Below are positions 3-18,337 of a DNA stretch of 34,867 nt, piece by piece (the stretch's first letter is position 1; the number at the start of each line of letters is the position of its first letter). The DNA is taken from assembly GCF_024105655.1 (NCBI RefSeq), contig NZ_JAAAMH010000027.1:1-34867 (forward strand), given 5' to 3'. Below the pieces are notes generated by a model that was given only the letters and a program-made list of their open reading frames with translations, did no database searches and was not told where the DNA came from. Source of the DNA: Aliihoeflea sp. 40Bstr573. GTDB lineage: Bacteria > Pseudomonadota > Alphaproteobacteria > Rhizobiales > Rhizobiaceae. A program made the translations under genes and the position numbers.

Positions 3-128
3 CTCTTCAACAAACTCAAGAACTGGCGGCGCGTCGCCACCCGTTATGACAAAACAAAGGAATCCTATCTCGGCTTCGTCGCCATCGCAGCAGTCAAACT
101 ATGGATACCCTTTGTCCACGAGCGCTAG
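3..128 (+). CDS. IS5-family transposase, C-terminal fragment (5' part outside window)
   Basis: The open frame entering from the left edge reads LFNKLKNWRRVATRYDKTKE and ends at TAG 126-128. The N/R-x-x-x-x-LKxWRRxATRYDK block is the usual C-terminal signature of IS5-family DDE transposases. Only 41 residues are present, and the catalytic D, D and E lie outside the window. The stop codon falls in a CTAG (125-128), a target type used by IS5 elements. The fragment abuts and truncates the minus-strand SbcC-like gene. It is partial because the window begins inside the element. I am confident of the family and less sure of the subgroup. Confidence 0.85.
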   Translation, partial: LFNKLKNWRRVATRYDKTKESYLGFVAIAAVKLWIPFVHER

Positions 129-488
129 CCGCGAAATGAACTCTTCCGCCTCATCGGCCTGCGCGACCAATCGTCCCGAACCGAGATCGACGACGTTCGC
201 GCGACGTCCAGAATGAAACTGCTTTGTAAGGCGAAAACGCCCTTGCGTCGTTTCGATATCGGCTTCGATCAGCGGGCTGCCGCCACTGTAGGGTTTGAGC
301 GCCTGCACTGCCCCCGGCGTCCCCGTATGAGGCTGAAAGAAGAGTGCGTGGAGGGCATCGAAGCTCGTCGATTTCCCGAATTCGTTGACCGCGCAGAGAA
401 CATTGACCCCATCACCGATGTTTTCTACAGCAACGCCGCGATCTGCGAACCGGCGCACGTTGTGAAGGCGCAGCGCGGTCAGTTTCAT
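99..488 (-). pseudogene. SbcC/SMC-like ATPase, N-terminal fragment truncated by IS5 insertion
   Basis: It starts MKLTALRLHNVRRF, typical of AAA_23/SbcC/YhaN-type ATPases whose N-terminal half carries Walker A before a long coiled coil. The P-loop is CAVNEFGKST (residues 32-41), with GKST intact but Ala33 where the first Gly of GxxxxGKS normally stands. About 120 residues resemble the family. From roughly base 129 to the stop at 99 the frame runs into the IS5 end, giving an unrelated tail. The coiled coil, hinge, Walker B and signature motif are all missing, so it is presumably non-functional. The start ATG overlaps the stop of the upstream phosphoesterase by four bases (485-488), so the two were translationally coupled, as sbcD and sbcC are. 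Confidence 0.8.
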
Positions 489-1606
489 AAAGCCTCGACC
501 TCGCGGCTGATGGCGAAAAGGCGGTTCAAGGCGTCAGCCGCTACAGCGCGCTCTTGCGCCGAACGCAAGATGTCGGCGCTCTCGGCGCGGAGAATTTCCG
601 CAGCCTGACGCAGTGCACCGCCCTTGTCGATCATGTCGAGGTCTTCCGCTTCGCAGAGGCTGGCAAGGTCTTCGGCCCGGAATTCGAGATGCCCGAATTC
701 GGGCGCGACAGTTTCAACGTTGTTTTCCAGAGCGCTTCGCTGCCCGATCCTCAGCCGTCCGCCGGCGACGATGCGCAGCAAGGTCTGCCGACGCCGTGTG
801 GCAGGCAGGCGATCGCGCAATATCGCCTCGCTATCCTCCTCGCCTAGGAAATCGAGAGCCAACGTCATCCAATCGAAGCTGCCCGTGTCGACCGGGGTAA
901 CATTTGGCATCACGCCAGCCCCCGGGATGGTCACGAGAAGCGCGCGCCCAGGCTGACCATGCTTGAAACGATCGGGTTCAGGCGTGCCGCTATACCAGGT
1001 ACGCGGGTCGATCGACATCTGGCCGTGCCAATCGCCAAGGGCAAGATAATCGAGCCCCGCCCGCTTCGCCCGATCCGGCGCGATGATATCTTCTGCGCCT
1101 TCCTCGCCGAAGCTCTGAATCGCGCCATGCGCAAGACCGATCCGAACAATACCCTCTCCGCTGGTGGCCGCATCCATCCAGTCTGTCAGGTCACGGCCCG
1201 GGCGGCGGACAGTGCACGGGGCGGGCAGGATGACCATGCCAGGCACGATTTCGAGGGGCACGGCCTCAAGCGCCAAGTTGACGTTGTCCGGAAGATTGCG
1301 GCCCATCAAGCTCCACAGTGCGTCGGCGAGAAGTGAATCGTGATTGCCGGGCAGGATCACCCAGGTGTGATCGCCATGACTTGCCATTTCACCGAGCGCC
1401 TGACGCACCAGCGCCGGGGTCGGTGTCTCCGTGTCGAACATGTCGCCCGCGATCAGGATGGCGGCGGCTCCAGCGGCCCTCGCCTCAGCAGCCAGGCGGG
1501 AAAGTACGACATGTCGCGCTTCACGCAAACGGCCGCGGATGTCCTCGGGCAGATTGCCGAAACGTTTGCCAAGGTGAAGGTCGGAAGTGTGCAGGAATCG
1601 GTGCAT
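485..1606 (-). CDS. SbcD-like metallophosphoesterase / DNA exonuclease subunit
   Basis: This 373-residue protein of the calcineurin-like phosphoesterase fold has all the metal-binding motifs of the SbcD/Mre11/YhaO group in order: D9-x-H11 in SDLHLG, GD (54-55) in IAGDMFD, GNHD (87-90), H160 in LAHGAI and GDWHG (191-195). These proteins are Mn-dependent nucleases that work with an SbcC/Rad50-type ATPase on DNA ends or hairpins. Here the partner directly downstream is cut off by an IS. The start ATG lies two bases after the stop of the giant helicase gene, so all three genes form one transcript. The low-similarity C-terminal part (about 250-373) would be the capping and ATPase-docking region. 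It belongs to this helicase cassette and is unlikely to be the housekeeping sbcD. Confidence 0.88.
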   Translation of the reverse strand: MHRFLHTSDLHLGKRFGNLPEDIRGRLREARHVVLSRLAAEARAAGAAAILIAGDMFDTETPTPALVRQALGEMASHGDHTWVILPGNHDSLLADALWSLMGRNLPDNVNLALEAVPLEIVPGMVILPAPCTVRRPGRDLTDWMDAATSGEGIVRIGLAHGAIQSFGEEGAEDIIAPDRAKRAGLDYLALGDWHGQMSIDPRTWYSGTPEPDRFKHGQPGRALLVTIPGAGVMPNVTPVDTGSFDWMTLALDFLGEEDSEAILRDRLPATRRRQTLLRIVAGGRLRIGQRSALENNVETVAPEFGHLEFRAEDLASLCEAEDLDMIDKGGALRQAAEILRAESADILRSAQERAVAADALNRLFAISREVEAL

Positions 1607-1608
1607 GG

Positions 1609-4600
1609 TCAGTTCCGGCTTGCCAGATGCGCCTGCGCCCGCGCAAGAGCCTCGTCAAGGCGCTGGCGCGCCGTCGCCGCCAGTCGTTCCACCCCGAGAA
1701 CCCGCGCCAACGCCAAGGCGGGGTCTGAGGCATCGAAAATATCGGGGTGGTCCACCACGACCGATGCGAGTTCGGCCAGAGGAATGTCGACGACCGAGCG
1801 GCGTGAGTTTTCGTCCCCAGCATCGCGATAGGGAAGAATCTCGACGATTTCTCCCTTGCGCCAGACGAACGTCCCGGTCGTCTCCTGCGTCCTGTCAATG
1901 TCGCGCAGGTGCAAGTCGATGCGCTCGCGGATGCGGTTGCCTGTTCGCAGCCAGCCATGTGCACGCGCGATGCGTTGGGCGAGAATGTCCTCGCGTAGCG
2001 GGGCCTCGCAGGCGAGCACCGCATCGACCATGCCCTGCAGATTTGAGCGGTAGCCGACTTCGTAAAATCGGTCGGGATCTACCTTGAAGGTCGACAAATC
2101 TGTCACGCGGTAGCTGTCCAATGCTGGCAAGCCATTGGAAGGCGCTTCCGATGGGGATGTGGCCGGGCGAAGAGGCGCAGTGTCCTGCTCGTCGACCAGC
2201 ATCTTGCCTGACGCTGGCTCGTGTTCAGGTTCGTTCAGCGGGCAGGCTTCATCCACGTTCTCGAGCGGTTCGATCTCGTGCCCCATGTCCCAGTGCAGAT
2301 CGGCCGGCGGACCGCTTTCCGCGCTGCGTTTCTGCCGGCTTTTCTCCAGCAGTTGATTCAGTTCTTCGTCCATTCGCTGTGCCGCGCCGGCGGCATCAAA
2401 CCACCAGTCGGTCGACCAAACGCGAATGATGTTCCAGCCAAGGCCGCGCAGCACCTGCTCTCGCACCTTGTCGCGGTCGCGCGCCGTCGCCGAACTGTGA
2501 TACGTCGCACCATCGCACTCCACACCCGCAAGATATGCGCCGGCAAGATCGGGATGTCGCACGCCGATGTCGACACGAAAACCGGATATGCCGACCTGTG
2601 GCACGAGTTGCCAGCCTCGCCTTTCGAGTTCTGCGGCGACGGCTTCCTCGAAAGGGGATTCGAGCGCGCCGACAGAACCTTCTTCGACCGCCGGCAGCGC
2701 GATCGCGCCACGTTCGGCAAAATCGAGATAGGTCTTTAGATGATGCACGCCGAGCGCCTTGGTGCGACCCGTGTCGATCTGGTCGGCCGTGAAGCCGGAG
2801 AAGACGATAAGTTCCTGTCTCGCGCGGGTGATCGCGACATTGAGCCTTCGTTCTCCGCCATCGCGATTGAGCGCGCCGAAATCCATCGTCCGCTTGCCCG
2901 CCGCGTCTGCCGTGAAGGTGATCGAGAAGAGGATGACGTCACGCTCGTCCCCTTGCACGTTTTCCAGGTTCTTGACGATTGTTCCCTCGACGCGCTCGTC
3001 CGCGAAGAACCACTCGAGCTTTGGCTCCTCGCGTCGTGCCGCGTCGAGCAGATCCTGTATGAGCGCCTGTTGTTGTGCGTTGAAGGTAATGACGCCGAGC
3101 GTGGGGCGTTGCCCCTCCTCGAGCGACAGCCACGCGCGCATCCGATCGACGGCTTCGCCTGCAACCGCTTCGGCTTCGATGCGATTCGTCCGACTCTTGC
3201 CCCGATCGTAAACGCCCTTGGCAACCGCATGAAGCCGGACGGCCCGGTCTTCGACGCTCGGTGAGGGAAATGTGATCAGTCGGTTCGCGTAGTAGTGGTG
3301 GTTGGAAAATGCGATCAGGGATTCGTTGCGGCTGCGATAGTGCCATCGAAGGTCGCGGACGGGGATCCCGGCAGCACGCGCTTCGTCGAGAATGCTTTCG
3401 AGATCCTTTTCGTGCTCGACAACCTCCTCGTCATCCTCATTGCGCCCGAAGAAGTTCGTCGGTGGCAGCTGTTTGGGATCACCGACAATGATCGTCTGTG
3501 TTGCCCTGGCGATTGCTCCGACCGCATCCCAGGTCGTGATCTGCGAGGCTTCGTCAAAGATCACGACATCGAACAGGGCCTGGTCTGGCGGCAGATATTG
3601 GGCGATCGAGAGCGGCGACATCAACATGCACGGCGCAAGTCTGGAAAAGCTTCCCGGCATGGCCGCGATCATCTCGCGGATCGACCGGCTTGGACGCTGC
3701 AAATCCATCTGGTGGCGAAGGAGACCAAGCTCAGAGTTGCGCGGAACGCTTTGAACTGACGGCAAGCCATGCGCGACGGCTCTGGCCACACGGCCCGTTG
3801 CAGCCGCCCGAACCAGATCATCGATCTGGCGAAAATCCTCGATGGCGTGTTCGTGCTGGAACCGACGAAATTCGCGCAGCACCGGATCGGCGTCGAGCGT
3901 CGGTGGCAGCCACCACCGGGCATAGCCGAGCCAGAACGCCGCCCCCGATGCGTCAGGCTGGACCGCCCCCGATTCGATATCGGCAACCAGGGGCCCGAGG
4001 CCTCGTGACATCGCCTCCTGCCGGACCTTGCACCACGTCGCCCAGTCGCGCAGAAGTTGGCGCGCGCCAGACAACTCGCGAAGTGCGTTGGGCAAATTCG
4101 AGAAGAGCCCCTCCCCTGCCAGCGGATCAGTCCCGCTCAATTCCGTGAACTCGGCGGCGGCGGTTCGAAGCGCGGTCAACTGGTCACAAAAGGCTTGTCC
4201 TGCCTGGCGAACCGGCTCGTCGGCTTGCGCCGATGCGAGCGCTGGGGTGATCGCCTGCACGACGCCGCGCAGTTCGTCCGCTGCGCGGCCAAGCCGCATG
4301 ACACTCTCGCGCACCCCTTTTGCACGGTCGAACTTCTCGCGCACGCTGCCGACGTCGGTATCGAGGCCAGCATAGCCTGTGCGCCGTGACGACAGGGTGC
4401 TCGCCGAAACGGCGGCACCATGGCCTTGCATCCTGCGAATTCGGTCGAGATCTGTCTGGGGATCGACCGTTCCACCGGCTGCGTAGCTCTGCAGCAGCTT
4501 CTTCACGCGACGCCTGCCGAGCCAGCTTTTCGGCCAGATCGAAGCCGAGGCCTGTCGCCAATCATCCTCAAGCCGCTCGACCGGGATCATCGCGATCCTG

Positions 4601-7539
4601 TCCCGCGTGAAATTTCCGGCGAGGCCGGCTTCGGCATCGCGGTAGCCGCCGATCGCGCTCTCCAGCTCGGTAAGCGCGCCACGCAACTGGCTGAACTCCC
4701 GGTCGAACGCGAACGAATGATCGCTTCCTGCGGTGGCGCAGATCGCCCCGGCAAGCTCGGCAAGACGATCGAGATCGATGATCGCCGGTTCCGGCCCCAG
4801 TGGCAGTCCGAGCTGGCGCAAAAGGCCTTCGTGGCTTTTCTGTAAAGCGACGACGCGGTCGCCAAGTTTGTTCGCTGACGCGATCAGCCGCTCTTGCCAG
4901 GCGGACGACCAGTCCGCCATGTCGACGAGGGCAAAGGCAGGCCGATGCTCGACGGAACGGTAGACGCGGCCGAGCTCGATCGCCAGCTCATCCATGCCGC
5001 GCAACATAGCCTCGTCATGCGCGTCGCATGTCGGCCATTCAAGCACGGGGGCATGGTCCTCTCGACCTCTAAGGGCGGTCCCGAGAGCGACGTAGACCGT
5101 CATGCCGTTGCTATACCGTCGGTGCAACGCATCCACATAAGAATTAAGATGATCACGGCGCAGACGCAGCCTTTCATTGACCGCGACCCATTCGCGTTCG
5201 TCGAAACGCGTCGTCGATTCCCAAGAGCGCTTGAGCTGGCCCAGGAAGGTCCGCCGGTCCGTCTTGGATGAGTGGAGTTCAAGGCAGTGATCGCCTAGCC
5301 CATGCTCGCGAAGTCGACGATAAACGACGTCCAGCGCCGCCGTTTTTTCCGCGACGAATAGCACCGTCTTGCCTGTTGAAAGGCAGTTCGCAATCATGTT
5401 TGCGATTGTCTGGCTCTTGCCGGTCCCCGGCGGCCCCACGATGACAAAATCGCGGCCCTCGGCCGCAGCAAGGCTGGCGGCGATCTGGGACGAGTCTGCC
5501 GGAAGCAGGGACACGATGTCGGCCGGCGCGTAAGACCGGTCGAGCTCGCGCTCCTCAATGACCGCGGCCCCCTCCCCCGAAAATGCCTGTTCGGGCGTGT
5601 CGATCAGATGCTTGACGACGCGGTTCTGGCGCAGTGCGTCGGTTCGTTCGACCAGATCCTTCCACATCAAAAATTTGGCGAAAGAGAAGGTCGAAAGCGC
5701 GGTCTCGTCGACCACCTCCATGCCCGGCACGTCGCGCACGGCGTTGCGCATGGCTGCCAAAAGTCGAGGGACATCCACTCCGTTCTCGTCGAGCGGCAGT
5801 TCGCCCGAAAACTGTGGCAGTGAAAGGTCGAAATCGCGCTCGAGGAACTGCAGCAGCGTCGCGTTAAATCGTGGCTCGTCTTCGTGGAACCGCAGGCTGA
5901 AGCGCGATGAGGCGCTTTTGCGCTCGAGCTTGGCCGGCACGAGCAAAAGCGGCGCACGATAGGTTTTCTCGTCCTGCGGTTTCTTTTTCCAACGCAAGAA
6001 TCCGACCGCGAGGAAAAGCGTGTTTGCACCTCCTTCGGCAAGGTCGTTCTTGACCTGCCGGTGCAGGTCGATGAGCCGCCCCTCCAATCCTTTTGTGTCA
6101 AGCGTCGACGCCAGTTCGTCGCGTTGGAGTGCATCGGTGGCAAACCGACGCTGGAGATCCTCGCCGCGAACCTGGCGGAACAGTTCCGCGTCACGCTCGC
6201 CGACCGGGTTCTGCTCGGGCAGAGAGATCAGCCGGATCGCCGCGCCGGCCGCAAGCCTGTCCTCCAGATAGGAGATGTCGGGACACAGGAACGGGATCGT
6301 CTTCTTCGTGTCTGGAAAGTTCAAGAGACGGTTGCGAAGCGTGAGGTCGAGCAGCTTTTTCTGCCACCGATCGATCCGGCCGGCTGCCGTCGTCGGCTTC
6401 TCCTCAATGAGCTCGGCAGGCAGATCTCCGAGCGCCGGAACCTGCGGGAGCGGCAGCTCCAACGGTTCGTCACCCCCCTCCCCTTCCGATGTCTCTACTG
6501 TCGCCCGCTCATGCGAGGCAAGCGGTGTAATGCCGCCGCTCCGTGCGCGCGCGATGTCAATCGCGGCGGTGAACTCGTGCGCGCGGTCTTCCTCCAGCCG
6601 CACCCTGATTGCAGCGCTTGCATGTGCAAGGGTCATCGGCGGACGATGGGTGACGCCTGTGGTCTCAAACACCAGCAACTCCCGCGCGGCGAGTGCCTTG
6701 CGCACCTCCATCGGGTCCGGCTCGATCGCATTCGCCAAGGTTCGCCGGGTCAACCAGACGCCAACCGCGGCGTGATCGGTAAACAGCAATACGACCGCAT
6801 TCAGCCCAGCCGCCTCCAATCCGGCGGCAATCAGCAGCGAGGTGTCGAGGCAAGTGGCCAACTTTTGCTCGGCAATGGTCGATGGGCGGCGCACTTTCTG
6901 TCCGCGCATCTCGAAGCTTGTCGGAGGCTCGGCGTAGTGAAGTCCAAGTCCAGCCGCAGCAGAATAGACTGCGCCCGTCAACAGGAACGCCCGCTTCGGA
7001 TCGCCGCTCTGGTAACCGTCGAGCGCAGACGAATGTCCATGAGCGGCGAGCCGCTCGGCGGCGGCGCGCAAGAGCCTCGCCGTGCCCGGATCGTTCGGCA
7101 TGACGAAGGCCGGCAGCAATTGTGCCATGTCCGCGACCCCGCCCCATTCGTCGCGTGCCAAAAGCCTTACCGAGCGGCGCTCTTCGGCAATCACCCGACC
7201 GCGGGCGGATAAGGTCAGCGTGATCTCACCACGTTCCGCTTCGTTGAGATCGGCAAGGTAAACGGCGTCGAGTTCGACCTTGCGATCGGACAGGTTGATG
7301 CTGTCGCCGGTCAGGATGCGGTCGAGCGTCCAGACCTTCTGGCGGAGGAAAGGCGGATTCGAAACCAGCCGCAGTTCGCAGGACTCCAGATTTTCCGCGG
7401 TGGGGTTGTGGATGGTGATGGAGCGCAGGACCGGAATGGCGTTCTGGTAGGATGCATACGTGAAGCTTCCTGCCAGATCGGCCGCTATCCTGACGCCCAT
7501 TTCCTGCTCTGCCTGCGGCTTCGTTTCAATCACATCCAC
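1609..7539 (-). CDS. DUF4011 / SF1 helicase with C-terminal MTES_1575 nuclease and DUF3320
   Basis: This is a 1976-residue multidomain protein. The N-terminal 370 residues resemble a beta-rich plus transglutaminase-like region. The DUF4011 segment follows (around 385-450, with KKLLDLTLRNRLLNF). SF1 DNA2/NAM7-type helicase motifs come next: Walker A GPPGTGKSQT near 701, DEAS box in VVIFDEASQI near 1326, GDPKQLPP near 1353, GDERDVILFS near 1527 and AITRAR near 1560. A Vsr-like MTES_1575 endonuclease lies near 1640-1715 (FRVDIG, VECDGATYH, RDRDKVREQVL, GWNIIRVWSTDWW), and DUF3320 near 1811-1875. Helicase-nucleases of this build are found in defence islands. Translation probably starts at GTG 7537-7539, with GAGG seven bases upstream. 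It is the first gene of a three-gene operon with the SbcD-like and SbcC-like genes. The helicase frame itself is intact. Confidence 0.92.
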   Translation of the reverse strand: MDVIETKPQAEQEMGVRIAADLAGSFTYASYQNAIPVLRSITIHNPTAENLESCELRLVSNPPFLRQKVWTLDRILTGDSINLSDRKVELDAVYLADLNEAERGEITLTLSARGRVIAEERRSVRLLARDEWGGVADMAQLLPAFVMPNDPGTARLLRAAAERLAAHGHSSALDGYQSGDPKRAFLLTGAVYSAAAGLGLHYAEPPTSFEMRGQKVRRPSTIAEQKLATCLDTSLLIAAGLEAAGLNAVVLLFTDHAAVGVWLTRRTLANAIEPDPMEVRKALAARELLVFETTGVTHRPPMTLAHASAAIRVRLEEDRAHEFTAAIDIARARSGGITPLASHERATVETSEGEGGDEPLELPLPQVPALGDLPAELIEEKPTTAAGRIDRWQKKLLDLTLRNRLLNFPDTKKTIPFLCPDISYLEDRLAAGAAIRLISLPEQNPVGERDAELFRQVRGEDLQRRFATDALQRDELASTLDTKGLEGRLIDLHRQVKNDLAEGGANTLFLAVGFLRWKKKPQDEKTYRAPLLLVPAKLERKSASSRFSLRFHEDEPRFNATLLQFLERDFDLSLPQFSGELPLDENGVDVPRLLAAMRNAVRDVPGMEVVDETALSTFSFAKFLMWKDLVERTDALRQNRVVKHLIDTPEQAFSGEGAAVIEERELDRSYAPADIVSLLPADSSQIAASLAAAEGRDFVIVGPPGTGKSQTIANMIANCLSTGKTVLFVAEKTAALDVVYRRLREHGLGDHCLELHSSKTDRRTFLGQLKRSWESTTRFDEREWVAVNERLRLRRDHLNSYVDALHRRYSNGMTVYVALGTALRGREDHAPVLEWPTCDAHDEAMLRGMDELAIELGRVYRSVEHRPAFALVDMADWSSAWQERLIASANKLGDRVVALQKSHEGLLRQLGLPLGPEPAIIDLDRLAELAGAICATAGSDHSFAFDREFSQLRGALTELESAIGGYRDAEAGLAGNFTRDRIAMIPVERLEDDWRQASASIWPKSWLGRRRVKKLLQSYAAGGTVDPQTDLDRIRRMQGHGAAVSASTLSSRRTGYAGLDTDVGSVREKFDRAKGVRESVMRLGRAADELRGVVQAITPALASAQADEPVRQAGQAFCDQLTALRTAAAEFTELSGTDPLAGEGLFSNLPNALRELSGARQLLRDWATWCKVRQEAMSRGLGPLVADIESGAVQPDASGAAFWLGYARWWLPPTLDADPVLREFRRFQHEHAIEDFRQIDDLVRAAATGRVARAVAHGLPSVQSVPRNSELGLLRHQMDLQRPSRSIREMIAAMPGSFSRLAPCMLMSPLSIAQYLPPDQALFDVVIFDEASQITTWDAVGAIARATQTIIVGDPKQLPPTNFFGRNEDDEEVVEHEKDLESILDEARAAGIPVRDLRWHYRSRNESLIAFSNHHYYANRLITFPSPSVEDRAVRLHAVAKGVYDRGKSRTNRIEAEAVAGEAVDRMRAWLSLEEGQRPTLGVITFNAQQQALIQDLLDAARREEPKLEWFFADERVEGTIVKNLENVQGDERDVILFSITFTADAAGKRTMDFGALNRDGGERRLNVAITRARQELIVFSGFTADQIDTGRTKALGVHHLKTYLDFAERGAIALPAVEEGSVGALESPFEEAVAAELERRGWQLVPQVGISGFRVDIGVRHPDLAGAYLAGVECDGATYHSSATARDRDKVREQVLRGLGWNIIRVWSTDWWFDAAGAAQRMDEELNQLLEKSRQKRSAESGPPADLHWDMGHEIEPLENVDEACPLNEPEHEPASGKMLVDEQDTAPLRPATSPSEAPSNGLPALDSYRVTDLSTFKVDPDRFYEVGYRSNLQGMVDAVLACEAPLREDILAQRIARAHGWLRTGNRIRERIDLHLRDIDRTQETTGTFVWRKGEIVEILPYRDAGDENSRRSVVDIPLAELASVVVDHPDIFDASDPALALARVLGVERLAATARQRLDEALARAQAHLASRN

Positions 7540-8117: not shown

Positions 8118-9422
8118 TTAGCCGGCTATTATCCTTGATTTCAAGTAGCGCTCACGCAGCCGTTCAAGCTGCAGTTCGAGACTGAATGCCCCTTTCTTTG
8201 CTTCATCTGTTAGATGCCGCAGATAGCCGCCAGGGGAACGGATGGCTTCAACGTTCTCCAGCATTGCAGCAACCACGATGGCTGCGCCGGCCGGCCCGAA
8301 CCCGAACCTAGCTTCACGCCAAGCGTCAGAAGATATGCCCAGCATGGCCTGCACTGTTTCCGCCGCCTGCAGCAAGTCAGGCCATCCATGAAGACCGCAG
8401 CGAGCGTAGGAGGCGATTTGCGGGCATAGTCGTCCAATTTCGGCGACGGACGGCAGTGATGGTATCGTTGGCGCAGTCCTTTTGAGCTGTTCCGGCGCTG
8501 GGATGGCCTTGTTAGAGGACGAAAGTGACAGGGGAATCTGGAGGCGCGCGGTAGCGCAATCAATTTTCAGACCATTTTCTATTAAAGTAGACTCTGTGTT
8601 TTTGGTCTCTATGTGGCGCTCATTCTGATCTGCATTGCCGCTCGTTTCGACGTGCTTTTTGTCATCTAAATTATTGCAATCGCTAGGTATCAAGAAGCCG
8701 TTCTCAATGTCGCGCTGAAGGCCGTGGAAGGCAGCTGCGCGAGCGTTTAGCTGTTCTAGGGTGGCATTTCGCGCCAGTCGGCCCTGCAGTTCGCAGAAAC
8801 GTGCATCGAGATCGATGAGCTGCTCTCCCCTGCCCTCCGCGCGTAGCATTGCGAGTGTTTTGGCGACGTCGCGTTGCCGAATTGTAACCTCAGCACGAAG
8901 TCGGCGAATTTCGCTTAAGCACTTGCGGTGGCGCTCGGCTGCAGCGAATACCAGCGATGCGCGGCCGATAAAAGGTGACAGGTCGAAGCCATAGGCCTGG
9001 AGCAGTTGACCGTTGGGATCTCGATCGGCGTAGCGCTTGCCATTGGCGCTGTCGCGCCGGACAATAAAGCCGCATTCAACCAGCGCCGAAAGATGACGGC
9101 GCAAGGTTGCCGGCGACATGCCACGTGCGCGTGTCGAAAGCTCAGCATTGGAAGGAAAAACGACTAACGGAGCGCCAGTAGGCAGATACCGACCGGGGTG
9201 AAAGCTCGTGAGCGCCTCGAGAACTATTATTGTACGGTCTGAGAGTCCAAAATGCTCGCGTGTTTCCGTTAGCGCTCGCAGTAGCGCCCAGCGGTCGCAA
9301 CCTTTCGTCGGCCGGGGGTTTGCATTCTGCGCCGCGTCTCCTTCTACAAACCCACGCGAGGCCATGTAGTGGGCGCGCGTCAAAACCTTCCCGCCAAAGG
9401 GCGAGACAGCCATCATCGTCAT
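8118..9422 (-). CDS. repC: RepC, plasmid replication initiator
   Basis: RepC is the initiator of repABC plasmids and acts at an origin inside its own gene. The protein (434 residues from ATG 9422) begins MTMMAVSPFGGKVLTRAHYM and has the typical N-terminal winged-helix region (CDRWALLRALTETREHFGLS, then RARGMSPATLRRHLSALVE). A variable AT-rich centre follows, then a C-terminal conserved block (EIGRLCPQIASYARCG to the end). The frame can be extended to a TTG at 9446, but ATG 9420-9422, or the ATGs just after it, is preferred because AAAGG and GGAAG lie just upstream. It is the third gene of the operon, separated from repB by the roughly 200-base ctRNA region, as in known repABC units. Confidence 0.94.
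   Translation of the reverse strand: MTMMAVSPFGGKVLTRAHYMASRGFVEGDAAQNANPRPTKGCDRWALLRALTETREHFGLSDRTIIVLEALTSFHPGRYLPTGAPLVVFPSNAELSTRARGMSPATLRRHLSALVECGFIVRRDSANGKRYADRDPNGQLLQAYGFDLSPFIGRASLVFAAAERHRKCLSEIRRLRAEVTIRQRDVAKTLAMLRAEGRGEQLIDLDARFCELQGRLARNATLEQLNARAAAFHGLQRDIENGFLIPSDCNNLDDKKHVETSGNADQNERHIETKNTESTLIENGLKIDCATARLQIPLSLSSSNKAIPAPEQLKRTAPTIPSLPSVAEIGRLCPQIASYARCGLHGWPDLLQAAETVQAMLGISSDAWREARFGFGPAGAAIVVAAMLENVEAIRSPGGYLRHLTDEAKKGAFSLELQLERLRERYLKSRIIAG
8560..8690. other. Candidate oriV: AT-rich segment inside repC
   Basis: In repABC plasmids the replication origin lies inside repC, in an AT-rich stretch near its middle. Here the segment with ATTAAAGTAGACTC and CATCTAAATTATTGCAA is clearly richer in A+T than the rest of repC. 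It also encodes a low-complexity linker (DKKHVETSGNADQNERHIET). The call rests on position and composition plus knowledge of the family. No iterons were recognised. Confidence 0.45.
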
Positions 9423-9479
9423 CTCTTCCGCCTTTCTTAAGGCCAAGTCGAAGAGCCCACCGGAGCGTAGTGCCGATGC

Positions 9480-9508
9480 TTGACATTCGCGCGTGGAAGT
9501 GATTCTTT
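9480..9508 (+). promoter_or_regulatory. Predicted promoter of the antisense ctRNA
   Basis: A perfect -35 hexamer TTGACA (9480-9485) lies on the strand opposite repB-repC. A weak -10 (around 9503-9508, TTCTTT/TCTTTC) follows at 17-18 bases. Transcription would start near 9512 and end at the hairpin 9530-9559. In repABC plasmids the ctRNA has its own strong promoter at this place, and the exact -35 supports it. The -10 is poor, so the start site is approximate. Confidence 0.5.
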
Positions 9509-9511
9509 CAG

Positions 9512-9565
9512 ATTGCTACATCGAAAGGGGGCTTCCGGAATGGCGACGTTCTGGGGGCCTTTTTT
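9512..9565 (+). ncRNA. ctRNA (incA-type antisense RNA) between repB and repC
   Basis: repABC operons carry a small antisense RNA of roughly 50-60 nt in the repB-repC gap. It blocks repC expression and acts as an incompatibility factor. The features needed are present here: an exact -35 box at 9480, a conserved-looking block around CAGATTGCTACATCG (9509-9523) and a Rho-independent terminator at 9530-9565. The predicted length is about 54 nt, and the 5' end is uncertain by several bases. The call is by position, promoter and terminator, not by similarity search. Confidence 0.72.
9530..9565 (+). terminator. Rho-independent terminator of ctRNA
   Basis: GGCUUCCGGAA (9530-9540) pairs with UUCUGGGGGCC (9549-9559) over 11 base pairs, three of them G-U, closing an eight-base loop. 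Six T residues follow (9560-9565). Orientation is plus, antisense to repB-repC. Because of the G-U pairs the complementary strand folds less well, which fits a terminator working only for the antisense RNA. Confidence 0.72.
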
Positions 9566-9605
9566 CTTGTCCGTTTCGTCCTTCTCGTTTCAGTCTCTTT
9601 ATCTA

Positions 9606-9660
9606 CCCAGCGCGATCGCGGACTGGGATAGAATGCTATCAGTCGCTTGAATTGCGACTG
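9606..9660 (-). promoter_or_regulatory. Inverted repeats at repB 3' end / repC leader
   Basis: Two hairpins lie in the mRNA leader between repB and repC. CAGTCGC (9640-9646) and GCGACTG (9654-9660) form a perfect seven-base stem with a seven-base loop overlapping the repB stop codon. CCCAG (9606-9610) and CTGGG (9623-9627) enclose the palindrome CGCGATCGCG (9611-9620). Control of repC in this plasmid family depends on alternative folds of this leader set by the ctRNA, so these are likely parts of the switch. The exact fold was not computed. Confidence 0.4.
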
Positions 9661-10688
9661 GCAAATTCCTCGGCTAGTTCCGGTAAGCGTTCGGCCACAA
9701 AGGATGCAAAGCCAGGCTTGACCGTTTTTTCGAACGCGATGGTTGGGCGCGCGCCGTCTGCGAGAAAAGCGATCCCTTCGCCGCTTCGATCCACGATGCG
9801 TACACGCTTTGAGCCGGCTGCTAGGTTGTTCGCCGCATCGAGATGGGCGAGCAACAATGCAAATCGGTCGTCAGAGGCAGCGGCTCGAAACGTCTCACTC
9901 AAAGTAAAGCGGTGCGCCGCTTCGACTACCTTAGGCTTAGCAACCAATGCTGCGAGACCCATCCATCGTGGCCGGCCGATCTTGGGCGCAGGTCCAATGG
10001 CCGCCGCAAGCTTCGCCGGTATGGCTTCTGCGACATGAAGCAAACGAGTCATCTCCGCCTTGTCGAGGCTGAGCGCTTGCTGGACAGTTGCACGATCGAA
10101 ACCATGGCGCATTAGCGCGTCGGCGAAATGAGCGCGCTCGATGAAAGATAGGTTCCGGCGTTCGCTATTTTCCTTACCTTGCGCAAGGACCAGCTCCGAG
10201 TCGCTCAGGGAACGAACGATCGCACGGACAGGCTGGCCGATCGACGCTGCCGCGCGGATACGTCGATGCCCATACGCAGACTGGTAGCGTCCCGGAACGT
10301 CCGGGTGCGGCCGCAGCAGCACTGGAACCTGCTGGCCTGTTTCCCGCATGCTTTCCACTAGAGCCTCGAAAGCTTCATCCTGCGGATCGACCAATCTGTC
10401 GCGTACCGGCGAGGGGTCTATCAACGCTGGCTCTACCGCAACTACACGCTCGCCGCGTTCTAGTTCCTCGCGCAGCGCGCGGGCGTCCTCCATCTCGCGC
10501 GTCACTCGCGTCAACGTCAGGCCCATTGCCTTTACCGCGCCAGACGCTGCGCGTGTAGGGGAGGGCTTGTCCGTGGCCGTAGTCGGTGGCGCATCTACAG
10601 GATCTACGTTTTGCGGGTCGCTGGACGCCCCGGGGTACTGCGTCTCACCGCCGAATAGCGCTTTCAAATGATCTTTACGCTTGCTCAC
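9639..10688 (-). CDS. repB: RepB, ParB-family centromere-binding partition protein
   Basis: RepB binds parS and works with RepA in plasmid segregation. The 349-residue protein starts with the family signature MSKRKDHLKALFGG. A ParB/sulfiredoxin-like nuclease-fold domain follows (about 82-165, including ESMRETGQQVPVLLRP and YQSAYGHRRIRAA). The helix-turn-helix region comes next (about 168-225, QGKENSERRNLSFIERAHFA, then ATVQQALSLDKAEMTRLL), and then a C-terminal dimerisation part. Its ATG overlaps the repA stop by four bases (10685-10688), so translation is coupled. Length and order match the family. Confidence 0.95.
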   Translation of the reverse strand: MSKRKDHLKALFGGETQYPGASSDPQNVDPVDAPPTTATDKPSPTRAASGAVKAMGLTLTRVTREMEDARALREELERGERVVAVEPALIDPSPVRDRLVDPQDEAFEALVESMRETGQQVPVLLRPHPDVPGRYQSAYGHRRIRAAASIGQPVRAIVRSLSDSELVLAQGKENSERRNLSFIERAHFADALMRHGFDRATVQQALSLDKAEMTRLLHVAEAIPAKLAAAIGPAPKIGRPRWMGLAALVAKPKVVEAAHRFTLSETFRAAASDDRFALLLAHLDAANNLAAGSKRVRIVDRSGEGIAFLADGARPTIAFEKTVKPGFASFVAERLPELAEEFASRNSSD

Positions 10689-11929
10689 GGCTGCGCCCCT
10701 GTTCTGCCCCAGGCTGCGAGCATCAGGTCCTCGATCTCCGCGTTGACAGCTGTCAACGATTCCATTGCACGGTCATAGGTGGCACGAGTAAAGGAGTCTC
10801 GACTGACTTCGTACAGGGTTTGTTTCGTCAAACCGGCATCAGAGATCGCAGTTGACTTCACCATAGGCGCTGTAAGAACGCGCTCGCCAAACTGAGCGCG
10901 TAGAAAACCAACGATCTGCGTTTGCGGGCCATCGTTCGGCTCGTAGCGGGTGATCAAATAGCGCAGAAAGTCGAAGTTGAGCTCACCGCCTGCTTCGCGC
11001 ACAACTGAAAGAAGGTCTGAAGCCATGTAAAGGAACTGTGACATCGACGCGATGTCGAGCATTTGCGGATGAACCGTCACAACAACCGAGGTTGCCGCAC
11101 ATAAAGCGGATAGGGTGAGGAAGCCCAACTGCGGCGGGCAATCGATGACGACAACATCGTAATTACCACTAACCGCGGCGAGGGCGCTCTGAATGCGCGC
11201 AAAGAAGAAGCCGTCGGCACTGGATTCTCCGCGATCGGCCAGCATGCGTGGCGTCGTATGCTCAAATTCGTGTAGTTCCAAATTGCCTGGCACCAAATCC
11301 AGCCCGTCAAAATAGGTGGGCTGGATGATCTCTGAGAGCGGGCGACGTTCCTCATCGTAGCGAATGGCGCCATAGAGCGTGTCATTTGCCGAGAGGTCGA
11401 TCTCTGGCTGATAGCCAAACAGTGCAGACATCGAGGCTTGAGGATCGAGGTCGACTGCAAGGACGCGATAGCCCGCTAAGGCAAGGTATTGTGCCAGATG
11501 CGTGGAGGAGGTCGTCTTCCCGGAGCCACCCTTAAAATTTGTCACCGCAATTACTTGGAGATGCTCCGTCGCCGAATCGCGCCATTTCAGGTAACTGCGC
11601 CCCTTGGAAGCATTCCGCTTTGTCAGCGCCTGCTCTGCCAAATGGTGGCGCAGTGCATTAATGTTTGCGAGTGTGTAGGAGCGTCTGCCGCCTGGGCCTG
11701 TTTCTGGCTGTGGGCCTTCGCCGTTTATCGACAACTGGCGAAGGTATCCATCCGACACACCGATCAGTCGTGCAGCCTCGCCGGAGGTAAAGGACCTCAA
11801 AGTCTTCTGAGCAAGGGGCGGAAACAGCCGATCGCGCAATCCCCTGAGTTGTTGAGACAACAACCTCGCATCGGCGGCGATGGCTTCATCAGCGCCTTGC
11901 AATACATTATGCGGATTGGCTATTGCCAT
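10685..11929 (-). CDS. repA: RepA, ParA-family partition ATPase and operon repressor
   Basis: RepA (414 residues) is the Walker-type ATPase that moves plasmid copies and, with RepB, represses the repABC promoter. The N-terminal helix-turn-helix region (about 46-100, FTSGEAARLIGVSDGYLRQL) precedes the ParA domain, with deviant Walker A KGGSGKTT at 133-140 and VDLDPQAS at 159-166. The ATG at 11929 is preceded by GAGGG. A parS-like palindrome lies 15 bases upstream of the start, and another lies inside the 3' end of the gene. No frameshift or missing motif was seen. Confidence 0.96.
   Translation of the reverse strand: MAIANPHNVLQGADEAIAADARLLSQQLRGLRDRLFPPLAQKTLRSFTSGEAARLIGVSDGYLRQLSINGEGPQPETGPGGRRSYTLANINALRHHLAEQALTKRNASKGRSYLKWRDSATEHLQVIAVTNFKGGSGKTTSSTHLAQYLALAGYRVLAVDLDPQASMSALFGYQPEIDLSANDTLYGAIRYDEERRPLSEIIQPTYFDGLDLVPGNLELHEFEHTTPRMLADRGESSADGFFFARIQSALAAVSGNYDVVVIDCPPQLGFLTLSALCAATSVVVTVHPQMLDIASMSQFLYMASDLLSVVREAGGELNFDFLRYLITRYEPNDGPQTQIVGFLRAQFGERVLTAPMVKSTAISDAGLTKQTLYEVSRDSFTRATYDRAMESLTAVNAEIEDLMLAAWGRTGAQP
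10742..10757. promoter_or_regulatory. parS centromere-like site inside repA
   Basis: GTTGACAGCTGTCAAC is a perfect 16-base palindrome that fits the parS consensus of repABC plasmids, GTTNNNNGCNNNNAAC. It is embedded in coding sequence near repA codons 391-396, just before the repA-repB junction. RepB is the expected ligand. Confidence 0.8.
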
Positions 11930-12274: not shown

Positions 12275-13390
12275 CTACAGCCCGGACGCTCTGGTGAGAT
12301 TGACGCGAAAGCGGTCGCGGCGCCGCTGATATTTGCGCGTCATTTGCGCCGACGCATGCCCGAGCTGCTTTTGCACGTAGCGCTCGTCGACCTCGGCCGA
12401 GGACGCCAGGCCGGCGCGCAGCGAATGGCCCGCAAACAGCTTTTCGCGCTGGCCTTCCGGCAGATCCCCGCGAACACCGGCGGAGAGGGCGGTCCGCTTG
12501 ACCAGGCGGGCGACCTCCTGGTCGTGTAGCCGATCTGCGCCGACCTTCTTCCCCTGCCCGGTGACGCGTCGGAACAGTGGGCCATGCGCGATACGCCCGA
12601 ACTTCAGCCATGTTTCCAACGCGACGACAGGGCAGGTGGTATCCGACGAGCCGCGCCCCACTTCCACTTCCCGCCAGCCGGTCTTGCCGCGCAGCGTGAC
12701 CAGCAGCCCCTTGTCCGGAAAAAAATCGACCCAGCCCGAAGAATCCTCGGTCTGGTCGCGGCCGACGTCCAGTCCGACGATTTCGGAACGGCGCAAGCCG
12801 CCGGCAAAGCCGAGGAGAAGCATGGCGCGGTCGCGCAGACCGCGCAGGGTGCCGCGATCGAGCGTTTCCAGCATGGCGATCAGCTCTTTTGGGAGGATTG
12901 CTTCCTTCTGCCGCGGCGGGGCGGCGTGCTTGTTGCGGATGCCGGCCATCACCGTGGCGATATGCCGGTCCTTTCGGTCGAGGGTGAAGCCGCGCTGAGA
13001 GTAATTCCACGATAGTGACGACAGACGCCGCTCGATCGTGGACACGGAGTTCGGTTTCCTGTCACCGCTCACCGTGCCGGCTGCACAGGCGGTGATGTAG
13101 AGGCCGATCGTCTGCGGCGGCGCGGGCATGATCGAAAGACCCTGGCGCCGGCACCAACTCGCAAAATGCTTCCAGTCGGAGGCGTAGGCGCGCCGCGTAT
13201 TGGCCGAACTCGCGGCCTCGATATAGCCGCGCGCCCGATCGGCAAGGTGCTCAAGGTGGCCGGAAAGCCGATGCGGTTCTTCTGTTGCCACCGGAAGGGG
13301 AGGGGAGGGGGCTTGCGCCGGTTCTCCGGTGCGCCCCATCTCCATGACCACATCGATGATGTCGGGAAGATCGTCGTCGTCTGGAAACAT
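12275..13390 (-). CDS. Tyrosine recombinase / site-specific integrase
   Basis: This 371-residue protein has an N-terminal SAM-like core-binding domain (about 45-150, SSANTRRAYASDWKHFASWC) and a C-terminal catalytic domain. The catalytic set is present: Arg200 or Arg201 in GFAGGLRRSEI, His322 and Arg325 in GHSLRAG, His345 in LGH and nucleophile Tyr354 in TRKYQR. Such recombinases resolve plasmid dimers or move mobile elements. The start ATG 13390 has GAGGG nine bases upstream. It is transcribed away from the adjacent toxin-antitoxin pair. A possible target is the inverted repeat at 14434-14458. No attachment-site duplication was found, so whether it serves the plasmid or an element is open. 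Confidence 0.9.
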   Translation of the reverse strand: MFPDDDDLPDIIDVVMEMGRTGEPAQAPSPPLPVATEEPHRLSGHLEHLADRARGYIEAASSANTRRAYASDWKHFASWCRRQGLSIMPAPPQTIGLYITACAAGTVSGDRKPNSVSTIERRLSSLSWNYSQRGFTLDRKDRHIATVMAGIRNKHAAPPRQKEAILPKELIAMLETLDRGTLRGLRDRAMLLLGFAGGLRRSEIVGLDVGRDQTEDSSGWVDFFPDKGLLVTLRGKTGWREVEVGRGSSDTTCPVVALETWLKFGRIAHGPLFRRVTGQGKKVGADRLHDQEVARLVKRTALSAGVRGDLPEGQREKLFAGHSLRAGLASSAEVDERYVQKQLGHASAQMTRKYQRRRDRFRVNLTRASGL

Positions 13391-13414
13391 GTGGCGATGC
13401 CCTCACTGTGAGTA

Positions 13415-13435
13415 TTCAATGCGTACATACTTGAA
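13415..13435. promoter_or_regulatory. Inverted TTCAA/TTGAA repeat in TA promoter region
   Basis: TTCAA (13415-13419) and TTGAA (13431-13435) are perfect inverted arms 11 bases apart, between the divergent integrase and antitoxin genes. TacA-like antitoxins repress their own promoter at such sites. The spacer is not symmetric, so support is weak. Confidence 0.25.
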
Positions 13436-13438
13436 ACC

Positions 13439-13768
13439 ATGGACCAGCTGATGTATCTATCCCGTGGAGGCAATTCCGGGATTGAGGCCATGGCGCGCGC
13501 AGCCCTCGACGATACCGACCGCATGAACATCCGCGTGAAGCCGGAGGTGAAGGCGCGCCTGATGCGGGCCGCGGCGCTCCGCCATACGGATCTCACCAAT
13601 TTCGTGACCCAATCGGCGCTGCGCGCGGCGGAAACAATCATTGCCGAGGCTGACGCCATAAAGGTGTCGGAGCGGGATTTTGACCGCATCTTAAAACTTC
13701 TGGACAATCCGCCGAGGCCGAATGCGAAGCTGCGTGCGGCGGCGGCAGCACTGCCAAAAGCCCTGTGA
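13439..13768 (+). CDS. DUF1778 (TacA-like) antitoxin
   Basis: DUF1778 proteins are ribbon-helix-helix antitoxins of GNAT toxins. The core runs from DRMNIRVKPEVKARLMRAA through TDLTNFVTQSALRAAETIIA. The C-terminal tail (ERDFDRILKLLDNPPRPNAK) is the typical toxin-wrapping segment. The frame opens at ATG 13439, but ATG 13490 (MARAALDD), preceded by GAGG, is equally possible and would give 92 residues, the usual length. The stop overlaps the GTG start of the toxin (13765-13768), the standard arrangement. It lies between the recombinase and the DUF1403 operon and may stabilise the plasmid. Confidence 0.88.
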   Translation: MDQLMYLSRGGNSGIEAMARAALDDTDRMNIRVKPEVKARLMRAAALRHTDLTNFVTQSALRAAETIIAEADAIKVSERDFDRILKLLDNPPRPNAKLRAAAAALPKAL

Positions 13769-14292
13769 GCCTTCCTCCCTGGCATGAGGAGGCGATCGCC
13801 CGATCGCACGACCGCAAAACCTTTGACTGTGGCGATGACGAGATAAACGCCTTCCTGCAGCGCTTTGCGCGGCAGGGGCACGAGCAGAACGCGGCGAAGA
13901 CTTTTTGCGCGATTTGTGATGATCAGCCGGGGCGAATTCTCGGCTTCTATAGTCTGGCTCCTGCCTCGGTCGAGCATGACGCGGTGCCTGTCGAAATGAC
14001 GAAGGGAATGGCCCGCCATAATGTGCCAGGCTTCCTTCTGGCTCGGCTTGCCGTTGACAAATCGGTTGCGGGCAGGGGGCTCGGTGGCCAATTGCTGCTG
14101 GCGGCAGCGCTGCGCTGCATTCGTGTCACCGAGGAGGTCGGCGGCGTCTTGATGATCATCGACGCCAAGGGCGAGCCGGCCGCAAACTGGTATGCGAGCT
14201 ATGGCGCCGAGCCCCTGCAGGATCGCCCGCTGAGTCTTGTTTTGCCACTGGCGACGTTTGTCGAAACGCTGAAGGCCAGCGGGCACCTCTGA
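13765..14292 (+). CDS. GNAT-family TacT-like toxin
   Basis: This 175-residue GNAT acetyltransferase of the TacT/AtaT type acetylates the amino group of aminoacyl-tRNA and stops translation. The N-terminal block (KTFDCGDDEINAFLQRFARQ) is diagnostic. The acetyl-CoA loop is seen in VAGRGLGGQLLLAAALR (about 96-112). The conserved tyrosine motif is NWYASYGAEPL (about 143-153). GTG start 13765 is set by the four-base overlap with the antitoxin stop. No damaging change is visible, so the pair is probably active. Confidence 0.9.
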   Translation: MSLPPWHEEAIARSHDRKTFDCGDDEINAFLQRFARQGHEQNAAKTFCAICDDQPGRILGFYSLAPASVEHDAVPVEMTKGMARHNVPGFLLARLAVDKSVAGRGLGGQLLLAAALRCIRVTEEVGGVLMIIDAKGEPAANWYASYGAEPLQDRPLSLVLPLATFVETLKASGHL

Positions 14293-14413
14293 CCAACCGC
14301 TGTTGGCCGACACCGGCGCCGCGGAACCATCCTTGGCTGGCCCCGTGCCGCGCGACGGTCCGGAGGCTCGCGCGCGGCGATATTCGGGCTTCTGCTCGAC
14401 GTTTCGGGCCATT

Positions 14414-14425
14414 CTTTATATAAAG
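14414..14425. promoter_or_regulatory. CTTTATATAAAG palindrome, possible -10 region
   Basis: This perfect 12-base palindrome lies in the 246-base gap between tacT and the DUF1403 gene, with a TATATA core that could act as a -10. It is nine bases from the inverted repeat at 14434-14458. No good -35 was found. Confidence 0.3.
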
Positions 14426-14433
14426 AGCAAAAC

Positions 14434-14458
14434 GACTGATAAGGCAACATTATCAGTC
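14434..14458. repeat. Perfect inverted repeat, operator or recombinase core site
   Basis: GACTGATAA (14434-14442) and TTATCAGTC (14450-14458) are perfect nine-base inverted arms around the seven-base spacer GGCAACA. Two recombinase-binding arms around a 6-8 base spacer is the layout of a tyrosine recombinase core site, and such an enzyme is encoded 1 kb away. It also follows a TATATA element and precedes the DUF1403 operon, so it could equally be an operator. Confidence 0.5.
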
Positions 14459-14538
14459 ATTTCAAATTGGCGACAAGCGCGGCTGTTTCGCGCATTGCAA
14501 CTTGCAGAAAGCGCCGCCATGATTCATCCTTTCTCGCG

Positions 14539-15573
14539 ATGATTCTGCGTCACAAATCCTCTCCACGCCATACCAGCGCGCTCACCGGCGCCGCAGCGGC
14601 CGCTCCGGTATCGACGGTGCCGACCTGGATGCGCCGCGCCGTCCCGGATCCGCAAAGCCTTGCGGGCAAAGACATTGAAGACATGGCGCTCGTTGCCGGC
14701 GCCGCCATCGGCGCGCTCGATGCGGTGGTCCGCCGGCAGGAGCGGTGGTCCGGCGCCTGGCGGCAGCGCCTGGCGCTTGTCGCGGCCGCGGTAACGGCGA
14801 AACAGGCCGGCCGCGTCGAGGATGAACGCGCGTTGCGTGATACGTTTGTCTTCAGCGGCCCCGGCGATTGTTTGTCCGAGTCTACGACCCTCGGCCCCGC
14901 CGGGCTTTTTCTGCTCGCCTGGCGTCGGCTGGCTACCTGGCCCGCGGTCGAACTGCTGACGAAGAAAAACCTCGCCGCCGTCCTGGAAGAGTTCGGCTAC
15001 GCTCCGGATGATGCGGTGGTCAGCGATCTGGCGGACGACCTTCAACAGCTCTCCGCCAGTCCCGGGACGGTCGGGATCCTGACTGGGGCGTTCATGACCG
15101 CCGAACGACATGGCTTCGGGCGCGCCGTCGGAGCCTGGCTCGCCGACGCGCTGCTGGCGCAGCGGTTGGGCTGGAGCCATGCTTTGCCGCTGCTTGGAAT
15201 CGAGCTGGCCTTGGGTACAAGCGCCCGCCCGCGTCGATCGACAGGCAGTTCCGTGGCCACAAACGTTGAGATAGGATCTGAGAGTGTCAAAAGTCTCCTT
15301 GCTGCGCAGGCGCGGACCGCGTTGCGGGCGATCGACCTGTCTACCGAGCTCGGCCGTCGCGCGGAAAAACTGCTCGCCATCGCGCCGAAACTCAGAGCCA
15401 GGGGAGCAGACGCGGTCGTCGAAAGGCTTCTGTCAGGCGATGCAATGGTCGCTTCCGACAATGTCGGCGGGATGAGCGATCGCGGTCTGCGCCGCCTGTT
15501 CGACCGGCTGGTCGATCTCGGCGCCGTGCGCGAACTGACCGGTCGCACCGCGTTCCGCATCTACGGGCTGTGA
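14539..15573 (+). CDS. DUF1403 family protein
   Basis: This 344-residue protein from ATG 14539 (MILRHKSSPRH) is of the DUF1403 family, found on rhizobial and related plasmids and usually beside an ScpB-like gene. Function is unknown. The region from about residue 45 (DIEDMALVAGAAIGALDAVV) is alpha-helical and Ala/Leu-rich. The last 50 residues (GLRRLFDRLVDLGAVRELTGR) look like a winged-helix fold. The frame can extend to TTG 14467, but those residues do not look conserved. No clear ribosome-binding site is seen. The stop overlaps the GTG start of scpB, so the two are coupled. Confidence 0.82.
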   Translation: MILRHKSSPRHTSALTGAAAAAPVSTVPTWMRRAVPDPQSLAGKDIEDMALVAGAAIGALDAVVRRQERWSGAWRQRLALVAAAVTAKQAGRVEDERALRDTFVFSGPGDCLSESTTLGPAGLFLLAWRRLATWPAVELLTKKNLAAVLEEFGYAPDDAVVSDLADDLQQLSASPGTVGILTGAFMTAERHGFGRAVGAWLADALLAQRLGWSHALPLLGIELALGTSARPRRSTGSSVATNVEIGSESVKSLLAAQARTALRAIDLSTELGRRAEKLLAIAPKLRARGADAVVERLLSGDAMVASDNVGGMSDRGLRRLFDRLVDLGAVRELTGRTAFRIYGL

Positions 15574-17020: not shown

Positions 17021-17034
17021 AAAAGGAGACGACC

Positions 17035-17670: not shown

Positions 17671-18097
17671 CCGCCTATCTGATCGATGAGAATGTACTCC
17701 GCGAATTCGGCGCGCGGGGCAATGCGAATGTGCGCAAATGGCTCGCCACCGTCGACGATGCGGATCTGAGGCTGAGCGTCGCGACCCTGTTCGAGAAGCG
17801 CCGCGGCGCGGAAGCGCTGAAGCGTCGTGACTCGCTGAGGTCGGCGGAGTTGCTCAAGGCTATCGCGGCCGCCGAAAAAGCCTTTGCCGACCGCATCATT
17901 CCCGTCGACCCCCGGTCGTCGAGGAATGGACGCGAGTGCTTGGCGCCAAAAATAAGGACCAGTGGGACATGGCGCTCGCCGCGACTGCGCGGGTTCACGG
18001 TCTCGTCCTAGTGACCCGCAACACCAAGGATTTCGAGGGCCGCGGCGTGCGCCTGCTTGATCCATTCCGTGATCCTCCGGTGCAGATCGAGCCGTGA
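17667..18097 (+). pseudogene. VapC-like PIN-domain toxin with a one-base frameshift
   Basis: The frame starts TAYLIDENVLREF, the first acidic PIN motif, and continues through SVATLFEKRRGAEAL to DRIIPVDP. It then shifts: the bases after 17913 read in the +2 frame as VVEEWTRVLGAKNKDQWDMA, ALAATARVHGLVLVTRNTKD and F to the stop TGA 18095-18097. This is the rest of a PIN domain, with its conserved Asp. Restoring one C in the C5 run at 17909-17913 joins the two parts into about 143 residues. As it stands, the product loses its last acidic residues at about residue 82 and should be inactive. A sequencing error in the C run is also possible. Confidence 0.85.
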
Positions 18098-18295: not shown

Positions 18296-18302
18296 GTAAT
18301 AG

Positions 18303-18321: not shown

Positions 18322-18337
18322 TAAGGGAGGAGTTACC

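Follow-up and report, generated by a model that had tools for sequence, protein, structure and literature searches.

A ProA-type helicase-nuclease with recurring SbcCD-like neighbours beside the repABC genes of Aliihoeflea sp. 40Bstr573

In a 34,867-nucleotide stretch of DNA from Aliihoeflea sp. 40Bstr573 (contig C20 of the 4.2-Mb draft genome; hereafter the window) we analyzed a cassette in which a helicase-nuclease gene is followed, on the minus strand and reading away from repA-repB-repC, by an SbcD-like gene and the start of an SbcC-like gene. The helicase-nuclease belongs to a family labelled anti-phage protein ProA, and its relatives repeatedly lie beside gene pairs of the Mre11/Rad50 type. 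With a probability of about 50%, we read the locus as a variant of the ProA anti-phage helicase-nuclease that carries an optional Mre11-Rad50-type module aimed at invading DNA. ProA is probably transcribed together with a short, hook-less SbcCD-like pair. The gap between the helicase and SbcD-like genes measures 2 bases and the SbcD-like and SbcC-like genes overlap by 4 bases (485-488), a packing that the original prediction, made from the letters of the window, had given correctly.

The helicase-nuclease (1609..7539, minus strand, 1976 aa, GTG start) matches the NCBIfam profile NF058533, 'anti-phage protein ProA', over its full length (2176.2 bits; profile positions 1-1903 of 1903; cut-off 1500) and also the PADLOC candidate PDC-S37. 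As it exceeds the NF058533 cut-off, the protein is not undescribed, and the suggestion of an undescribed defence system falls for this gene. We infer a defence role for the cassette; the anti-phage role of ProA itself is a database label. Filing the protein as Hhe (NF042953, 'DUF4011 domain-containing anti-phage protein') was rejected, the match being partial, best over residues 1147-1738, and its 774.2 bits lying far below the cut-off of 2000. NF058534 ('antiphage_HyoA'), whose accession adjoins that of ProA, had no match in the genome of the window.

All domains named in the original prediction score above their Pfam cut-offs: DUF4011 (PF13195, 155.9 bits; residues 395-566, 5842..6357), a superfamily 1 (SF1) helicase that resembles SMUBP-2, SEN1 and DNA2 and contains a long insert (AAA_11/AAA_12; residues ~684-1580, 2800..5490), the MTES_1575 nuclease domain (PF18741, 115.5 bits; residues 1630-1727, 2359..2652) and DUF3320 (PF11784, 58.2 bits; residues 1823-1872, 1924..2073), all on the minus strand. 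Solved chains matched by the helicase include SMUBP-2, SEN1 and DNA2. PMC3710099 describes the MTES_1575 nuclease as Vsr-type and the DUF3320 region as a winged helix. Across an alignment of 68 full-length ProAs, the window included, the Walker A lysine (K708), the Walker B Asp-Glu, Arg1572 of motif VI and the nuclease residues D1657, E1674 and D1676 are kept in every row.

The same alignment shows Cys230 and His256 to be invariant (68/68) in an N-terminal region that the original domain list had left unmentioned and that we assign as transglutaminase-like (residues 134-334; 6538..7140, minus strand). An AlphaFold model of residues 130-345 (pLDDT 89.1) places the cysteine at the start of a helix and the histidine at the start of a strand. 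Run with this model of the domain alone, Foldseek found nothing that reached E 0.001; many of its weak matches were transglutaminase-like folds, PNGase, TgpA and TGase among them, and others were flagellar proteins. Residues 1-390 returned transglutaminase 2, pilus chaperones and others over ~115-165 columns at low TM-scores. Since these matches are weak, the assignment draws on the conserved Cys and His, the secondary structure and a report, in PMC3710099, of an MTES_1575 protein carrying a transglutaminase domain. Family members also vary in length. ProA frames of 1747-1813 aa at seven loci (L026, L027, L030, L039, L063 and L066, from Aureimonas and relatives, and L079) can be aligned only to about residue 1740 and therefore probably do not have the DUF3320 end; SbcCD-like neighbours are found at none of the seven. 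Other relatives, of ~1600 aa, do not have roughly the first 345 profile positions.

The second gene (485..1606, minus strand, 373 aa, ATG start) is intact and encodes an SbcD/Mre11-like metallophosphoesterase (Metallophos, 39.8 bits), whose best PDB matches are SbcD chains and which scores 60.0 bits against TIGR00619, below the cut-off of 77.65. In SbcD/Mre11 nucleases motif V usually has the form GHxH and is expected to be a metal site. Here it reads GDWH, as it does in all 70 family members compared, ProA-linked and stand-alone alike and with near-copies counted, a family-wide change at the expected metal site. The open reading frame (ORF) given for this protein is confirmed, but the claim that all its motifs are present needs correcting at motif V and in view of the TIGR00619 score. 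The third gene (5' part, ~121 codons, 128..488, minus strand) was recognized from AAA_27/AAA_23 matches and comparison with relatives, and the SbcC of an intact relative matches Rad50 ATPases; its identity as an SbcC-like ATPase holds, with only ~121 residues present in the window. Nuclease and ATPase genes with metallophosphoesterase and ABC ATPase domains stand in tandem, the 3' part of the ATPase gene lying on contig C43.

The zinc hook of Rad50 has the form CxxC. None of 35 near-full-length SbcC relatives, which measure ~876 aa, contains such a motif, nor does the part on C43; the hook is given as a Rad50 feature in PMC10586767. The tandem of a metallophosphoesterase and a coiled-coil ABC ATPase is shared with SbcCD/Mre11-Rad50 and with YhaO/YhaN, but a true SbcCD identity was rejected on account of the sub-cut-off TIGR00619 score, the GDWH motif V and the hook-less, short SbcC. 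Lamassu combines LmuB with an LmuA effector. A weak and partial match to LmuB was found for the SbcC of a relative (P0004; 40.5 bits, residues 536-852), whereas the partner in our loci is an SbcD-like nuclease.

To survey relatives of ProA, six peptides of the window protein served as seeds, and these retrieved mostly near relatives, ten loci being near-identical Mesorhizobium copies. In 40 of the 79 named ProA loci a co-directional sbcD-sbcC pair lies downstream, a few of these copies being broken; 11 have a divergent second Mre11/Rad50-type pair upstream, 22 have neither and 6 lie at contig ends. The second pair we take to be YhaO/YhaN, a naming that accords with a 'YhaN family protein' label in plasmid annotation; in one Mesorhizobium group it occupies the place of SbcCD. 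Loci at contig edges were set apart as uninformative (6/79 here, 3/30 and 5/26 in the broad searches described below). After dereplication the downstream type falls in a single clade of alphaproteobacterial ProAs; of its 36 rows, 18 carry SbcDC, 8 carry YhaO/YhaN and 10 have neither. In labelling, L170 was set by hand to 'downstream', as a merged reading frame had misled the labelling and an SbcD-SbcC pair is present there; L071, with a 44-residue SbcD remnant, was counted as having none, and a weak YhaO-like fragment beside L212 was left uncounted. The named and unnamed sets overlap (L170 of G193 is L031; L171 of G205 is L054).

As a control we compared all 1135 ORFs picked in the 79 loci with the SbcD and YhaO profiles: 28 match, and all 28 adjoin ProA, the two matches beyond 1.5 kb (L056, L082) adjoining ProA genes split by frame breaks. 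Because ORF picking missed some partners, 28 is not a count of pairings. Further gene orders came from plasmids and from more distant relatives. Matches were present in 324 plasmid records, from which 13 loci were read: four have ProA-SbcD-SbcC, an intact example being that of Rhizobium phaseoli pRphaN831c (L231), two have divergent YhaO/YhaN, one has ProA-YhaO-YhaN (L230), one has YhaO-YhaN-ProA (L109) and five have no such pair, one of the five (L107) having a metallophosphoesterase matched by no profile used. At L221, in a genome marked only 'same phylum', SbcD-SbcC-ProA lie on one strand, the ProA there reaching 41% identity over its best segment, and at L222 a divergent YhaO/YhaN pair adjoins a ProA of 38% identity. 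Most of the 324 plasmid records come from two genera (231 Klebsiella, 11 Raoultella; ~40% identity in the rows shown).

ProA and its SbcD partner have also diverged in parallel. Over 19 loci the ProA and SbcD distances correlate with rho 0.80, a value reached in 0 of 5000 permutations and to which shared species history can contribute. The SbcD tree has 50 rows, and the 24 that are linked to ProA all belong to one clade of 34, which also holds 10 stand-alone rows; among the latter, L116 pairs with the ProA-linked L012, and the SbcC found at the L116 place (L145) shares 91.5% identity with the L012 SbcC. At L120 (G451) a ProA-like remnant of ~50 residues (44% identity) lies just upstream of a stand-alone SbcD-SbcC pair, likely a case of ProA loss. 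The ProA-SbcDC operon is probably old in this clade, and either side of it can apparently be lost; repeated gain may also have occurred. One genome, G174, has a stand-alone SbcD-SbcC pair on its contig C5 (L122) and an over-cut-off ProA without such a neighbour on C16 (L181).

Pure chance pairing was ruled out by the recurrence, the several gene orders, the adjacency-only control and the correlated divergence. The thought that the association might be local is answered by these results, and the idea of a dedicated pairing is borne out as far as recurrence and partner co-divergence go; as a fixed part of ProA, the pair did not hold up. SbcCD as an obligatory component was rejected on the broad searches, in which most ProA loci have no such partner.

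In this isolate the third gene is interrupted. The SbcC-like frame, 76% identical to residues 1-122 of the intact relative, leaves its own gene after ~121 codons and runs into the end of an IS5-family insertion sequence (IS) at the contig edge (1..127). These bases are identical to C36:1-127 over all 127 positions, the contigs diverging at base 128, and similar sequence occurs in plasmid records, in part with an annotation as IS5-family transposase. On C43, another contig of this genome, an open frame matches residues 104-874 of the intact relative's SbcC (45% identity); the contig ends in the opposite IS end, with plasmid matches similar to those of the window end. IS5 relatives make a short TA duplication on insertion, and the flanks read CTA|IS|TAG, which fits such an event. 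We read C20 and C43 as the two sides of one IS insertion splitting sbcC, a join of contigs that the assembly does not prove, and treated the two pieces separately. SbcC is very probably non-functional in this isolate; ProA and SbcD may still be made. Contig C36 opens with another copy of this IS5 end (L004, 1-532); a 143-aa ORF there, MucR/Ros-like by eye, begins within the IS end and continues in frame, which gives the impression that the IS has taken the place of a regulator gene's start.

Defence genes lie near some relatives, in agreement with the defence connection proposed for this helicase type. We chose ten proteins from eight loci by eye and scanned them with PADLOC, finding Cas9 (L018, L061), AbiEi/AbiEii (L035), AriA/AriB-like proteins (L037; PARIS-like AriAB), PDC-S06 (L010) and a GajB-like helicase (L053); the neighbour proteins of L009 and L013 had no PADLOC match. 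L061 and L037 are ProA loci without SbcDC. A defence context is thus present in some loci, at a frequency that a hand-picked sample does not give. According to PMC10250203, a large DUF4011 gene also borders a Pseudomonas aeruginosa defence hotspot. Genes suggestive of ubiquitin-like conjugation (ThiF, multiubiquitin, DUF6527 or JAB-type) lie near the plasmid ProA loci L229, L231, L109 and L236. At L106 the flanks of a ProA relative hold transposases and an AbiJ-NTD4 gene but no SbcCD-like neighbour.

Several results weigh against a ProA variant with a module directed at invaders. Searches that did not start from the window protein put ProA over the cut-off in 29 of the order's 397 genomes and in 32 of the phylum's 398; they returned only the best-scoring places (30 loci from the order and 26 new ones from the phylum, some under the ProA cut-off) with flanks of ~1.5 kb, so that more distant partners are missed. 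The loci of the order comprise 2 with downstream SbcDC (one being the window), 1 with YhaO, 24 with none and 3 at edges, the further 26 of the phylum 1 with upstream SbcC, 20 with none and 5 at edges. A Mre11/Rad50-type neighbour is therefore seen in 3 of 47 informative loci (of 56; own excluded), and ProA does not need such a partner. The ProA tree, built quickly and with no bootstrap values, requires 10 or more changes of the SbcDC label, 7 of which are forced by starred branches (shuffled mean 16.4), and the tie has therefore often been made or broken, with frequent gains or losses (this tree and the SbcD tree were midpoint-rooted for drawing only). The same SbcDC family also occurs solo in many genomes: of the order's 397 genomes, 53, that of the window among them, hold SbcD relatives (E up to 1e-30), and among 29 other SbcD places with ~1.5-kb flanks, ProA lies directly upstream at L123, the remnant mentioned above at L120 and neither at 27. 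When 20 SbcD places were read to 15 kb, ProA was labelled at L152 (the L123 place) only, among the matches listed. Such stand-alone pairs fit ordinary repair. An integrity check of 45 loci (the 40 named downstream-type loci, L071 and four plasmids) found SbcC broken or lost in five (L008, L017, L053, L071, L229) with ProA staying open; with the window, whose copy is, by its sequence, not a working three-gene cassette, SbcC is lost six times. These counts are low, and some lone frame breaks could stem from errors in sequencing. Finally, no paper on anti-phage work with ProA was found among the titles and abstracts listed (open-access literature only), and the label is therefore NCBI's word alone. 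In the same check ProA was split in L082 and truncated in L045, SbcD was broken in L024 and L071, and L016, L020, L044, L065 and L078 were merely cut by contig ends. L229 is a second IS case after the window, an IS21 splitting sbcC beside intact ProA and SbcD (13925-20240).

The main rival, which we consider unlikely, takes the SbcCD-like pair as host-shielding, repairing breaks made by ProA or by infection and having no part in attack. It gains from the gene neighbourhoods of stand-alone pairs within the order, which look ordinary and non-defence by eye, from the open ProA genes beside broken sbcC, and from the genome of the window, where a search with P0002 found the window SbcD as the only one and TIGR00619 had two matches (the window SbcD and one of 20.7 bits), neither over the cut-off. 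It predicts, however, that ProA without the pair should be rare or broken, whereas pair-less ProA, mostly open, is the common state in the sampled loci. We hold it similarly improbable that two independent modules both travel in defence islands and on plasmids and happen to share an operon. The many solo ProAs and solo SbcDC pairs, the SbcC losses and the frequent label changes would all suit such co-travelling; yet ProA branches that lie apart show several gene orders, the Mre11/Rad50 pairs involved are of two kinds, the spacing is tight, divergence is correlated and no such genes lie elsewhere in the flanks. A rough estimate for the 47 broad-search loci, which counts two neighbours per locus and takes two of every 4000 genes to be SbcD-type, also gives ~0.05 pairings by chance against the 3 seen.

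A plasmid setting was correctly foreseen for the cassette: repC, repB and repA (8118..11929, minus strand; RP-C, RepB and ParA-type Pfam matches) precede it, and the cassette, in the same orientation, starts 578 bp downstream of repC. This position would suit a DNA-end resection and recombination cassette whose chief role is to maintain the large repABC replicon and not defence, as would the repair function that PMC4351679 gives for archaeal Mre11-Rad50-HerA-NurA operons. We regard this as very unlikely, given that ProA is labelled anti-phage, that at least one three-gene relative is chromosomal (L028) and that Cas9, AbiE or AriAB lie beside some relatives. Beyond the rep genes the window is annotated with integrase, DUF1403, ScpB and DUF433 genes (12275-17670), of which the integrase-to-ScpB portion is conserved on Mesorhizobium and Aminobacter plasmids. 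An Rfam scan of the window gave no match.

What is known and what is new can be separated as follows. The helicase is a named anti-phage protein, to which the window adds a co-directional SbcCD-like pair. In PADLOC and NCBIfam, both libraries of single-protein models, no model named for a ProA system was found for the SbcD-like or SbcC-like proteins, and the three-gene cassette is described in no title or abstract among the matches listed; the original statement that the pairing is not a named system agrees with this. The scans and literature listed did not show the recurring link of ProA with two kinds of Mre11/Rad50 pair. HerA and NurA are protein families other than ProA. The archaeal operons (PMC4351679) and eukaryotic MRN-DNA2 are similar in logic, with an end sensor and nuclease beside a helicase-nuclease, but their role is repair, and ProA fuses the helicase and a Vsr-type nuclease in one chain. 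It is a tentative thought, held at less than even odds, that ProA with its Mre11-Rad50-type pairs could correspond, in bacteria, to resection by MRN-DNA2 or HerA-NurA, here put to use in immunity, the helicase-nuclease having joined more than once with two end-sensing lineages.

If the locus is indeed a ProA variant with an optional module, the SbcCD-like complex would bind free, hairpin or protein-blocked ends of phage or plasmid DNA, as it enters or replicates, and clip them; ProA would then load at these ends, unwind the DNA with its DNA2/SMUBP2-type helicase and cut it with its Vsr-type nuclease, so that the invader would be degraded. Substrate, order of action, cooperation of ProA with SbcCD and defence by the cassette are all predicted in this scheme. 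The module would be optional, as ProA also occurs alone or with YhaO/YhaN instead. If true, the choice between a short SbcCD-like and a YhaO/YhaN complex would decide which ends ProA attacks. The tie between ProA and Mre11-Rad50-type pairs suggests that DNA-end structure may serve as a cue for telling invader from self, and the natural ProA-alone, ProA-SbcCD and ProA-YhaON versions would allow a direct test of this idea.

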